Assembly: GCF_030285785.1 (NCBI RefSeq)
Contig: NZ_CP127247.1
Coordinates: 3,929,501 to 3,993,500 of the forward strand
Length of the DNA stretch: 64,000 nucleotides
Source of the DNA: Parasedimentitalea psychrophila
GTDB lineage: Bacteria; Pseudomonadota; Alphaproteobacteria; Rhodobacterales; Rhodobacteraceae
Reading direction: 5' to 3'
Shown: positions 747 through 26,847 of the stretch, in pieces
Position numbering within the stretch: the stretch's first letter is position 1
Layout: each line of letters starts with the position of its first letter
Made by a program: the position numbers and the translations under genes
Notes under the pieces: model-generated
The model's input: only the letters and a program-made list of their open reading frames with translations
What the model was told of the DNA's origin: nothing
Databases searched by the model: none

Positions 747-1331
747 ATGCGCAAGCTGGCTATTGGCATGGTTATTGCAGGTTTATCGGCTGGCCCGGTT
801 GCTGCGGCGGATATTTTTGGCACAAAGAGCCAGCGGAGCCTGTTTGCATCGCATACCCGCGTTCTGGATGGTCGGGCGGCGGGACAGTACAATAACTCGG
901 TCCGTTTAAAGCCACCCAGTATCTATACGCCCAGTAAATGGGGCCACTTACCCTATAGCGGTAACTATCGGGGGGAATACCTTGATATGGCTCGCTCTGC
1001 CGCGCGACAGCACGGGGTACCCGAAGATCTGTTTCTGCGATTGGTGCAGCAGGAAAGCAACTGGAACCCCAATGCAAAGTCTCACAAGGGCGCGTTGGGG
1101 CTTGCGCAGCTGATGCCCGCCACTGCCCGGTCTTTGGGCGTTGACCCTCAAAAACCCCAGCAAAACCTAGAAGGTGGCGCCCGGTATCTGGCCAGGCAAT
1201 ACCGCAAATTCGGCACCTGGAAACTGGCTCTGGCGGCCTATAACGCAGGACCACAAGCGGTTGAAAAGCATGGCGGAATCCCGCCGTACCGAGAGACCCA
1301 AAACTACGTGAAAAAAATCTGGGGCAGCTGA
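747..1331 (+). CDS. Lytic transglycosylase, SLT domain
   Basis: A 194-residue periplasmic enzyme predicted to cleave the MurNAc-GlcNAc bond of peptidoglycan. The first 21 residues form a Sec signal peptide ([20 protein letters not shown]). The catalytic SLT domain runs from about residue 75: [13 protein letters not shown] carries the catalytic Glu, then [18 protein letters not shown] and [16 protein letters not shown], which are the canonical Slt70/MltC-type motifs. It is a single-domain enzyme without a LysM or SPOR cell-wall anchor. It is followed by the TTAA array and a small membrane protein. SLT enzymes of this size serve turnover or local opening of the wall; the specific role is not visible here. 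Confidence 0.9.
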
Positions 1332-1353: not shown

Positions 1354-1445
1354 GGCGTTAACGCGACCTTAAGGCTGGCTTAATGCCGCGTTAACGCCCT
1401 TCTCGGGGCATTAATTTGCCTTAATCTTGGTTAATTTTGACTTAA
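1354..1445. promoter_or_regulatory. Phased TTAA array, candidate multi-site CtrA operator
   Basis: Eight TTAA motifs start at 1358, 1369, 1380, 1391, 1411, 1421, 1431 and 1442, so neighbours are 11, 11, 11, 20, 10, 10 and 11 bp apart. Four adjacent pairs (1358/1369, 1369/1380, 1380/1391, 1431/1442) fit TTAA-N7-TTAA, the alphaproteobacterial CtrA site. The outer motifs of the first block also form a 12-bp inverted repeat, GGCGTTAACGCG (1354-1365) and CGCGTTAACGCC (1387-1398). The array ends 5 bp before the ribosome binding site of the gene at 1463. Binding by CtrA is inferred, not shown. Confidence 0.6.
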
Positions 1446-1462
1446 GTTTTGGAGGACATGTC

Positions 1463-1837
1463 TTGATTGCCAAGAGCTTTAACCAACGTCTTGATCGTAT
1501 GCAGTGGCACCCCACTGCGGTGCCGACCCGTGAAATCGTAGATGGAATTCTGGGGCAACGTCCCGCTGTCGATCTGCGCGGTGTTGGATTGACCCTGCTT
1601 GGCGCGATCTTGGGCATTCTGATTGGTGTTGGTCTCAAGGGCATGGTGATGCCGGGAACATTGTGGGGGCCCAGCAGTGGTCTGCTTGGAGTTCTGGTTG
1701 GAACGATGTGCATTGCCGGCTTTGTATTGTCCCTGCCGATGGCAGCTTTGGGGGCGGTCTGGCATCAGCGCAGACCTTGGCTTCTGCCCGTGTCGGCGAT
1801 GAACCTGCTGATGATCGTGGTGATCTTGTTAAGCTGA
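1463..1837 (+). CDS. Small membrane protein of unknown function
   Basis: I do not recognise this family. The favoured start is a TTG at 1463 because GGAGG at 1451-1455 lies 7 bp upstream; an in-frame TTG at 1427 lies inside the TTAA array. The 124-residue product has a short soluble N-terminus (about 35 residues including RLDRMQWHPTAVPTREIVDG), then three hydrophobic stretches: VGLTLLGAILGILIGVGLKG, LLGVLVGTMCIAGFVLSLP and WLLPVSAMNLLMIVVILLS. It is probably an inner-membrane protein with three spans. The array directly upstream suggests CtrA-linked, cell-cycle or motility-type control. Confidence 0.75.
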   Translation: MIAKSFNQRLDRMQWHPTAVPTREIVDGILGQRPAVDLRGVGLTLLGAILGILIGVGLKGMVMPGTLWGPSSGLLGVLVGTMCIAGFVLSLPMAALGAVWHQRRPWLLPVSAMNLLMIVVILLS

Positions 1838-2040
1838 TTCAAACAGCGCCAAAGGGCCTGTTTCAGGCGCTTGCAGGCCATGGCAACCCTTGTGAGGGAT
1901 GAATGCAAAACGACATATAATCAATGCATTGTCTGCCATATGAGAGGCTGTCGCCGCCGAACCGTCAGTTCATCACGCGATCTTGGCACGCTGTTGTTGA
2001 TGGACCGAACCCGGTCAGGTCGAGCTGGAATTTGGCAGTC

Positions 2041-2068
2041 CGTAAACTCACCGAGGCATGCGTTTACG
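2041..2068. promoter_or_regulatory. Inverted repeat upstream of the TPR-sulfotransferase gene
   Basis: CGTAAAC (2041-2047) and GTTTACG (2062-2068) form a perfect 7-bp inverted repeat with a 14-bp spacer, about 57 bp before the chosen start codon. This is a plausible operator or promoter-proximal site. No cognate regulator is evident nearby. Confidence 0.3.
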
Positions 2069-2125
2069 TCGTATTCATTTTGGTTCGCTAATGTGAGTGA
2101 TCTTTTCGACCTTGTGGGACAACAC

Positions 2126-3580
2126 ATGTCAAATTCAGCTCAACTCGACATTTCGGACCGTGACATGGCCGCACAGTCCAGCCGCCAGATTCTAAAGACC
2201 GCTGATCATCTCATGGAGAGACGTCAGTACAGAATGGCCCTGGCTGGACTACTACCGCTGATGCAAGAGAGCAGCCTTGATGTCGCTGTACTGGACAGAA
2301 CAGCCAGCTGTTACTTTCAGTTAGGTGATTGTCAAGCAGCCATTTCCCTGGTTGAGGTCCTAATCCAACTCAGGCCAGACCTGACGGCTGGGTGGGGGAA
2401 ATTGGCTGCTATGAAGCACTCGCTTGGTGATAAACAGGGTGCAATTGAAGGATACCGTAAGGTATTGAAGGAAGATAAAAATTCTGTTTTTGCATTGGCT
2501 GCTTTGAATCGTTTAGACCCTTTTAGGCGCGATGGTCAAAAAGCATCTAGATTGCGAAAGCTATCAAAGTCACCAAAGTCACCAAAGTTGTCAAACGCAG
2601 AACGCTCCGCAGTTTTTAGTGCACTTGGGCAAATCGAACACGCCTCCAACCGCCCGAACTCTGCGTTTCGGTTCTTTGCCAAGGCTAAGGCCGCCCAAAA
2701 AGCGGACTATTCTCCTGAAGTGATGGAGCAACTGGTAGACGGTCAGATTGAGAAATTCAGGAAAAACACCACGACAGAGTGTCATCGCGATGGCCCGCGT
2801 ATCGTGTTTGTCATGGGGATGCCAAGATCCGGAACGACCTTAGTCGAGACTATTCTCGCTCGACACTCAATAGTCGGGACTGCCGGCGAAAGCACCGCTT
2901 TGTCGAAAACGCTTCAAGTTGTTCGCCAGCACATAAAGGACACCCAGCGAGGGGCAGATGTCTGGGATTGGTTTGGTCAGTTGTCCGAGCAGGAGATCGC
3001 CATATTTCGGCAGAGTTATTATGGGTTTCTTTCGCAGGGCACGACCGTATCCAATGATGTCATTGTCGACAAAATGCCGGGTAATTCCCTGCACCTGGGT
3101 TTAGCGCATATGCTGCTGCCAAATGCCAAGTTTATATTTATGTCGCGGCATCCATTGGATGTCGGCCTGTCGAATTTTTCGACCATCTTTGGCACCGGAA
3201 ATCAGTTTTCCAGCCGACTTGATTGGATTGGCCAGACGACACGTTCGGTGTATCGATCAATTGAAGACTACAAACAAAAATTGCCCGATCAGCTCCGCAT
3301 CCAATCTTATCAAGGGCTGGTGACCAATCCAGAAATCCAGATCAGGGCTCTGTTAGACCATGCCGGGCTGTCCTGGGAACCGGACTGTCTGTCACCACAG
3401 GACGCAGAAGGGGCGATCCGGACGGCATCGGTGGAGCAGGCGCGTGAAAAAATCAACACCCGGGCATTAGGAAAGTGGCAACCTTATGAGCAACAGCTTC
3501 AGCCCTTGGTCGATGCATTGGGTGGGCCGGAATGGATCCAAGCCTGGCAGACCCAGGATAAGATGTCTGCCAGCTGTTGA
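2126..3580 (+). CDS. TPR-repeat sulfotransferase family protein
   Basis: A 484-residue protein with an N-terminal helical repeat region and a C-terminal sulfotransferase domain. Residues about 20-150 look like TPR helices (TASCYFQLGDCQAAISLVEVL, then SLGDKQGAIEGYRKVLKEDK). The sulfotransferase begins with VFVMGMPRSGTTLVETIL, the 5'-phosphosulfate-binding loop for PAPS, and later has FIFMSRHPLDVGLSNFS, the 3'-phosphate-binding region. It probably transfers sulfate from PAPS to an unknown acceptor, perhaps a glycan or protein. The frame stays open upstream to 1871, but that part is cysteine-rich and unlike the family, so ATG 2126 is preferred. Base composition is more AT-rich than its neighbours, hinting at transfer. 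A short SPKSPK repeat links TPR and catalytic parts. Confidence 0.85.
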   Translation: MSNSAQLDISDRDMAAQSSRQILKTADHLMERRQYRMALAGLLPLMQESSLDVAVLDRTASCYFQLGDCQAAISLVEVLIQLRPDLTAGWGKLAAMKHSLGDKQGAIEGYRKVLKEDKNSVFALAALNRLDPFRRDGQKASRLRKLSKSPKSPKLSNAERSAVFSALGQIEHASNRPNSAFRFFAKAKAAQKADYSPEVMEQLVDGQIEKFRKNTTTECHRDGPRIVFVMGMPRSGTTLVETILARHSIVGTAGESTALSKTLQVVRQHIKDTQRGADVWDWFGQLSEQEIAIFRQSYYGFLSQGTTVSNDVIVDKMPGNSLHLGLAHMLLPNAKFIFMSRHPLDVGLSNFSTIFGTGNQFSSRLDWIGQTTRSVYRSIEDYKQKLPDQLRIQSYQGLVTNPEIQIRALLDHAGLSWEPDCLSPQDAEGAIRTASVEQAREKINTRALGKWQPYEQQLQPLVDALGGPEWIQAWQTQDKMSASC

Positions 3581-26038: not shown

Positions 26039-26086
26039 TTAACTATTATGGTAACGGAGCGTTAACCTTTTTCCATCAAGGTTAAC
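26039..26086 (+). promoter_or_regulatory. TTAA-rich ctrA upstream region with palindrome
   Basis: GTTAACCTT (26061-26069) and AAGGTTAAC (26078-26086) make a perfect 9-bp inverted repeat 42-67 bp upstream of the ctrA start. A third TTAA is at 26039. TTAACC half-sites are a form of the CtrA recognition element, so autoregulation of ctrA is the simplest reading. Confidence 0.5.
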
Positions 26087-26127: not shown

Positions 26128-26847
26128 ATGCGCATACTTCTGGTGGAAGACGACCCAACAACAGCAAAAAGCATTGAACTGATGCTGACCCATGCGAACC
26201 TGAACGTCTATGTGACGGATCTGGGGGAAGAGGGCATCGATCTGGCCAAGCTGTACGACTATGATTTGATCCTGCTGGATCTGAACCTGCCGGATATGAA
26301 CGGCCACGAGGTGCTGCGTCAACTGCGTTTGGCACGGATCGAAACTCCAATCCTGATTCTCACTGGTGAAGATGATACTGAGAACAAAATCAAAGGCTTT
26401 GGCTTTGGTGCTGACGACTATATGACCAAACCGTTCCACCGCGAGGAACTGGTTGCGCGTATTCACGCCATCATTCGCCGCTCCAAGGGCCACTCGCAGT
26501 CGATCATCAAAACCGGCAAGATTGCGGTTAACCTGGATGCGAAGACGGTCGAAGTAGATGGTAAATCCGTGCACCTGACCGGCAAAGAATACCAGATGTT
26601 GGAGCTGCTGAGCCTGCGTAAGGGGACGACGCTGACCAAGGAAATGTTCCTGAACCATCTGTATGGCGGCATGGATGAGCCGGAGTTGAAGATCATCGAC
26701 GTATTCATCTGCAAGCTGCGCAAGAAGCTCAGCACTGCGACAGAGGGTGAAAACTACATCGAAACGGTCTGGGGTCGCGGATATGTTCTGCGGGATCCGC
26801 AGGTGGAACAAATGCCGAGCAGCCCACGCTTGGCTGTTGGCGCCTGA
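26128..26847 (+). CDS. ctrA: Cell-cycle response regulator CtrA
   Basis: CtrA is the OmpR-type master regulator of the alphaproteobacterial cell cycle; in Rhodobacterales it governs motility, chemotaxis and often gene transfer agents. The 239-residue protein starts [20 protein letters not shown]; the phosphoacceptor is Asp51 in [13 protein letters not shown], and Lys of [13 protein letters not shown] is conserved. The winged-helix domain includes [20 protein letters not shown] and [10 protein letters not shown]. It follows sciP by 108 bp. Confidence 0.97.

Follow-up and report, generated by a model that had tools for sequence, protein, structure and literature searches.

Eight helically phased TTAA words before an uncharacterised Rhodobacteraceae gene: a likely CtrA operator with a conserved core

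Upstream of a small gene of Parasedimentitalea psychrophila, eight TTAA words lie about one helical turn apart, and the question is what this array does and which gene it serves. An initial annotation of the locus had proposed that the response regulator CtrA, or another TTAA-binding protein, loads cooperatively along one face of the DNA and controls the gene that starts at 1463. The window, i.e., the whole stretch of DNA that was analysed, is 64,000 nucleotides long, and all coordinates refer to it unless another locus is named. The features of the region are as follows.

747-1331, plus strand: upstream gene, SLT-domain lytic transglycosylase (PF01464, 94.6 bits)
1358-1394, no strand assigned: upstream block of four TTAA words (1358, 1369, 1380 and 1391; steps of 11, 11 and 11)
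1380-1395, plus strand: core full site, TTAA-N7-TTAAC, supported by the ungapped stretch and the word conservation in the promoters compared
1411-1445, no strand assigned: downstream block of four TTAA words (1411, 1421, 1431 and 1442; steps of 10, 10 and 11)
1451-1455, plus strand: GGAGG, a probable ribosome-binding site, read from the sequence
1463-1837, plus strand: target gene, coding for a 124-aa protein of an unnamed family (start common to 15 aligned orthologues)

The starts of the eight words, which fall within 88 bp, and the four neighbouring TTAA-N7-TTAA pairs (starts at 1358, 1369, 1380 and 1431) were confirmed at the positions originally reported. The steps are 11, 11, 11, 20, 10, 10 and 11 bp, that from 1391 to 1411 being about two helical turns, and the array also has two TTAA-N6-TTAA pairs (1411/1421 and 1421/1431). 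Because TTAA is palindromic, the orientation of a site is unreadable from the word. The window contains no other TTAA-N7-TTAA pair; whole-window shuffles gave a mean of 0.20, and 0 of 100 reached the observed four. TTAA occurs 83 times in the 64 kb (∼1 per 770 bp), fewer than the 117 expected from shuffling, and the densest 100-bp stretch elsewhere, array-internal windows excluded, has four. When 1332-1462 was shuffled with its dinucleotides kept (n = 20,000), the mean was 1.56 TTAA, the maximum was 6, and no shuffle reached eight. The phase coherence of the array is R = 0.94 at 10.5 bp, and only 2 of 100,000 random placements of eight non-overlapping words were as well phased (best of three periods, 10.3-10.7). 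The assertion that the cluster is far from random, with one-turn phasing, was thus borne out, and in both steps and coherence the array has the tandem repeats about one helical turn apart that are expected of a target of the OmpR/PhoB family. A search for a sigma-70-like promoter in 1200-1600 found none. The array DNA, compared with its own genome (E up to 10), matched only its own reverse copy and three stretches of 14-19 bases, and a dispersed repeat element was rejected.

The array lies between two genes, either of which could own it. The transglycosylase gene was present in 51 of the 61 family genomes searched, and 30 of its loci were fetched, the own one and 29 others. In the 260 bases after the stop codon, none of the 29 loci, all from other genera, has such an array: 21 lack TTAA altogether, and eight carry between one and three words, scattered. 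The 29 genomes also do not overlap with the set in which a homologue of the 1463 gene was found. Since the array accompanies the 1463 gene and is missing after all 29 other transglycosylase genes, it belongs to the 1463 gene, as had been proposed, and the transglycosylase gene was rejected as its owner. By eye, the sequence before the array in the Phaeobacter loci L027 and L030 is unlike the usual transglycosylase end, and four and two words, respectively, are kept there. L052, a diverged homologue of the 1463 gene, likewise stands after an apparent transglycosylase end.

The 1463 protein had no match in Pfam, NCBIfam, PHROGs or PADLOC. The segment GILIGVGLKG is invariant, except at one position, in 15 aligned 1463 proteins. 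The structural model has three long helices (38-62, 74-102 and 107-123) at modest confidence (pLDDT 74, pTM 0.52), and a fold comparison against the PDB and viral models, with an E limit of 0.001, gave no match. From its sequence, the product is probably a small inner-membrane protein. The following ORF of the window (1871-3580) has a sulfotransferase domain (PF13469) and TPR-like repeats.

Conservation before orthologues of the 1463 gene was one half of the refutation test that the initial annotation had set for the array. A homologue was found in 6 of 248 family genomes and in 7 of the 8 genomes of the genus, the own genome being counted in both cases; the eighth genome of the genus is 85% complete. 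When the 1463 protein was searched against named genomes, 14 loci were obtained, with titles naming Rhodobacteraceae, Rhodobacterales, Parasedimentitalea, Zongyanglinia, Phaeobacter or Leisingera. In all, 24 upstream regions were gathered (the window, the 14 named-genome loci, six of the genus, and L049, L050 and L051 from the family genomes), 17 of them distinct, and column statistics were taken on 14 of these rows after L055, L032 and L033 had been dropped as near copies. The diverged homologues L052 and L053 were excluded because no array was visible before them: L052 has no TTAA in 260 bases upstream, and L053, whose start is uncertain, has two words 166 bases apart.

The stretch 1379-1426, which carries the pair 1380/1391 and the site 1421, aligned without gaps in all 17 distinct promoters, although the spacers vary and the 1421 site lies anywhere from 42 to 55 bases before the gene. 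The geometry of 1380/1391/1421 is fixed to itself, as expected for a promoter with its operator. At 1358, 1369, 1380, 1391, 1411, 1421, 1431 and 1442, exact TTAA was found in 12, 5, 13, 12, 5, 11, 5 and 4 of the 14 representatives, respectively, and a word with at most one mismatch in 12, 13, 13, 14, 6, 13, 7 and 5. For the eight representatives outside the genus, the exact counts were 7, 1, 7, 6, 1, 7, 0 and 0. All eight words are intact in only two of the 17 promoters, those of the window and L059. Single promoters depart from this pattern: L051, from another genus, has six TTAA of its own; L054 and L055 have a downstream block with no exact word; L057 lacks the first two words; and in L030 little is left of that upstream. 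Five words make up the core: 1358, 1369 (which degenerates outside the genus), 1380, 1391 and 1421. The words 1411, 1431 and 1442 are mostly a genus-level addition, absent from part of the genus. The expectation of conservation held for the core of the array. In L028 (∼2393-2401), and likewise in L026, L032 and L033, the second array site reads TGTGGATAA, between two TTAA words. It resembles a DnaA box, and is absent from the window genome.

Over the 14 representatives, the mean information was 1.36 bits in word columns and 0.89 elsewhere; for the eight outside the genus, the two values were 1.47 and 1.19. A word mask shifted by +1 scored the same (1.36; outside the genus 1.48 against 1.47), because the base after TTAA is conserved too. 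An alternative is a functionless cluster, born by chance or by slippage in an AT-richer promoter. Four exact words at N7 steps are indeed no commoner in the family than the reversed control (7 of 394 genomes, including the array and a congener's locus, against 5 of 394), but local shuffles never gave eight words, and the core words persist in genera in which the 1463 proteins are 44-53% identical while the spacers change. We regard a chance origin as very improbable. These comparisons indicate that the core is under selection, and that the array is a real cis-regulatory element with a conserved core.

An element of this kind could also act as RNA, i.e., as a terminator or structured RNA after the transglycosylase gene, with the TTAA phasing a by-product of an inverted repeat. 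Such a repeat, which the initial annotation did not mention, exists.

1354-1398, no strand assigned: imperfect inverted repeat (arms 1354-1373 and 1379-1398; 20-nt, 90% complementary)

The predicted RNA fold has a z-score of -2.26 (6 of 200 shuffles were as good), and terminator-like hairpins occur on the plus strand at 1396-1409 and 1405-1422, three being found in 1200-1600 on both strands against 0.7 expected. The inverted repeat is strong, however, only in the window genome among the 17 promoters: outside the TTAA words, 10 of 12 stem positions pair there, against 3 to 7 of 12 in the other 16, in which the core words are kept. The stem is thus not maintained in relatives, as a terminator or RNA element would demand. 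The single Rfam match in 1200-1600 was weak (E 0.57; 18 bits against a gathering score of 55), and the other 29 transglycosylase loci, as noted, lack the array. Since the stem is unconserved and no convincing Rfam match was obtained, the terminator or RNA hairpin was rejected; we give it very little credence.

The remaining question is which protein reads the words. TTAA-N7-TTAA is the CtrA full site (PMC6180460), and such sites stand upstream of the 1463 gene. CtrA is encoded ∼25 kb from the array, in the same window.

26039-26085, no strand assigned: TTAA words before ctrA (26039, 26062 and 26082, with GTAA at 26051)
26128-26847, plus strand: ctrA, the proposed binder (NF045991 RespRegCtrARhodob, 432.6 bits, cut-off 350)

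The best PDB match of the ctrA product is the CtrA receiver domain, 4qpj. The words before ctrA, which include a 20-bp step as the array does, would fit CtrA autoregulation, as proposed for Dinoroseobacter shibae (PMC4046655).

Clusters of TTAA-N7-TTAA were then counted genome-wide, a check that the initial annotation had suggested; three exact words at N7 steps occur nowhere in the 5.0-Mb genome but in the array. If one mismatch was tolerated, seven such triplets were found, against 16 for the reversed control pattern. One of them, at L062 1501-1526 (G000:C1:959543-959568), is flanked by a luxR-type gene and luxI and stands 36 bases ahead of the latter. Pairs of TTAA spaced by N6, N7 and N8 number 12, 34 and 20 (10, 30 and 20 without the array's own), which puts N7 ahead of the other two spacings counted. 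Against the CtrA reading, the 34 N7 pairs do not exceed the 56 of the reversed pattern, which is also commoner at N6 (77) and N8 (83). TTAA pairs as such are therefore rare, and the case for their use lies solely in which spacing is preferred and where the sites fall. Outside the array there are 30 N7 sites, of which 27 are intergenic (22 of these within 300 bp before a predicted gene), against 3 of 15 AATT-N7-AATT control sites (the first 15 of 56; Fisher p = 5e-6); the intergenic calls depend on a simple script that took the longest ORFs, and coding DNA may avoid TTAA on other grounds. TTAA-N7-TTAAC is present on at least one strand at 20 of the 30. A four-word array in another genus (L068, genome G268) and a single N7 site in the own genome (L002, G000) both appear, by eye, to lie beside a carA-like gene.

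Ten proteins next to N7 sites, chosen by eye, were scanned: one has a MotB domain (71.7 bits, cut-off 24; below the NCBIfam MotB cut-off), one PAS domains, three Hint domains and one RTX repeats, two gave sub-cut-off matches only, and two gave none. Sites beside Hint-domain or RTX-repeat proteins (L001, L008, L013 and L083) may form a part of the regulon concerned with secreted proteins. At the L010 site, the downstream PAS protein may be DivL-like; Pfam finds its PAS domains, but the NCBIfam scan of the whole ORF was empty, and the name DivL was rejected for it. In D. shibae, CtrA sites have been reported before quorum-sensing, flagellar and divL genes, a pattern that the MotB-domain neighbour and the luxI triplet would fit, and the CtrA regulons of Phaeobacter inhibens and D. 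shibae share ∼40 downregulated genes, most of them flagellar (PMC4046655; PMC12363192).

Another binder of TTAA or AT-rich DNA, such as an OmpR-family regulator, a MucR-type silencer or IHF/HU, could occupy the array, with CtrA incidental. Any member of the OmpR/PhoB family would be suited by the helical phase, Trans_reg_C matches number 13 in the genome (10 of them above the cut-off), and ArcA and Streptomyces PhoP, described below, use repeats mostly 11 bp apart (PMC3798270) and 11-nt units (PMC7866108), respectively. In contrast, the array is built on the CtrA full site, at the spacing that is commonest of those counted; the essential Rhodobacter regulator CenR, of the OmpR family, recognises TGA-N8-TGA (PMC9275681); and an AT-rich silencer would be expected not to require exact words at fixed spacing. 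We consider a binder other than CtrA unlikely. The CtrA reading is the likely one as judged from sequence, and the interpretation first put forward for the locus was, as a whole, partly supported.

We think it probable that the 1463 gene has its operator and promoter in this region and that CtrA binds there; on the best reading, the array is a CtrA operator whose core is conserved and which has been extended over the promoter at genus level. CtrA~P dimers would bind head to tail at the upstream block, with 1380/1391 as the core site. The 1421 site, 30 bp downstream of 1391, would lie at or near the -10 region, a placement that is a guess. Contact between neighbouring dimers is plausible by analogy with ArcA and PhoP; dimers in one phase would touch and load cooperatively, so that the gene would respond steeply to CtrA~P. 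The words 1411, 1431 and 1442 would cover the promoter and the early transcribed region and cause repression or delay at high CtrA~P. The net effect, again a guess, would be activation at moderate CtrA~P and repression or delay at high CtrA~P. In Caulobacter, activating CtrA sites lie near -35 and repressing half-sites overlap the -10 region (PMC6180460). At pilA, the -35 site drives transcription and the upstream sites repress and delay it; of the synthetic pilA promoters, those with two full sites differ little from those with one, and that with three full sites 6 bp apart has the lowest activity, less than half of the wild type (PMC11264516). By analogy with that synthetic promoter, we infer that the core operator would set CtrA dependence and the extension would limit or delay output, and the array is perhaps a threshold or delay switch. 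A bolder version, which we hold only tentatively, is that the array is a natural single-phase strip for a CtrA multimer, in which eight half-sites on one DNA face form one cooperative loading unit, the CtrA~P level sets a sharp window, first on and then off, for the expression of a Rhodobacteraceae membrane protein, and evolution has tuned the strip length (a core of about five, eight in one genus).

The promoters compared here form a natural series, with the same gene and core geometry and from two to eight exact words, which could be used to test how the number of CtrA sites affects threshold, timing and sign of control. In addition, an uncharacterised protein family of the Rhodobacteraceae emerges as a likely target of CtrA.

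The titles and abstract openings of the CtrA literature searched contained no report of the 1463 locus or of an eight-word in-phase CtrA array. Among OmpR/PhoB-family regulators, Escherichia coli ArcA binds direct repeats mostly 11 bp apart, also with 22-bp steps, and its footprints suggest cooperative occupancy; it differs from the array in having two to five repeats and in regulator and words (PMC3798270). In the PHO boxes of Streptomyces PhoP, weaker units flank a core of 11-nt direct repeats (four plus two at pitH2); regulator and words differ from those proposed here, and the organisms are Actinobacteria (PMC7866108). The CtrA systems are closer. The ctp pilin promoter of Agrobacterium tumefaciens has six CtrA half-sites at spacings of 6 and 7 bp, like those of the array, but fewer and before a different gene, and pilA of Caulobacter crescentus has, like the array, eight half-sites (four full sites) before one gene, with 6- and 7-bp spacers (PMC11264516). 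Most CtrA-activated Caulobacter promoters have one site, and at pilA the sites are separated by 31, 3 and 78 bp, whereas all eight words of the array lie within 88 bp in one helical phase; the nearest match found to this natural array is the synthetic three-site pilA promoter (PMC11264516). The view that so long a tandem array is unusual therefore needs narrowing: on the published account of pilA, eight CtrA half-sites before one gene were already known, and the unusual part is their tandem packing in a single phase.
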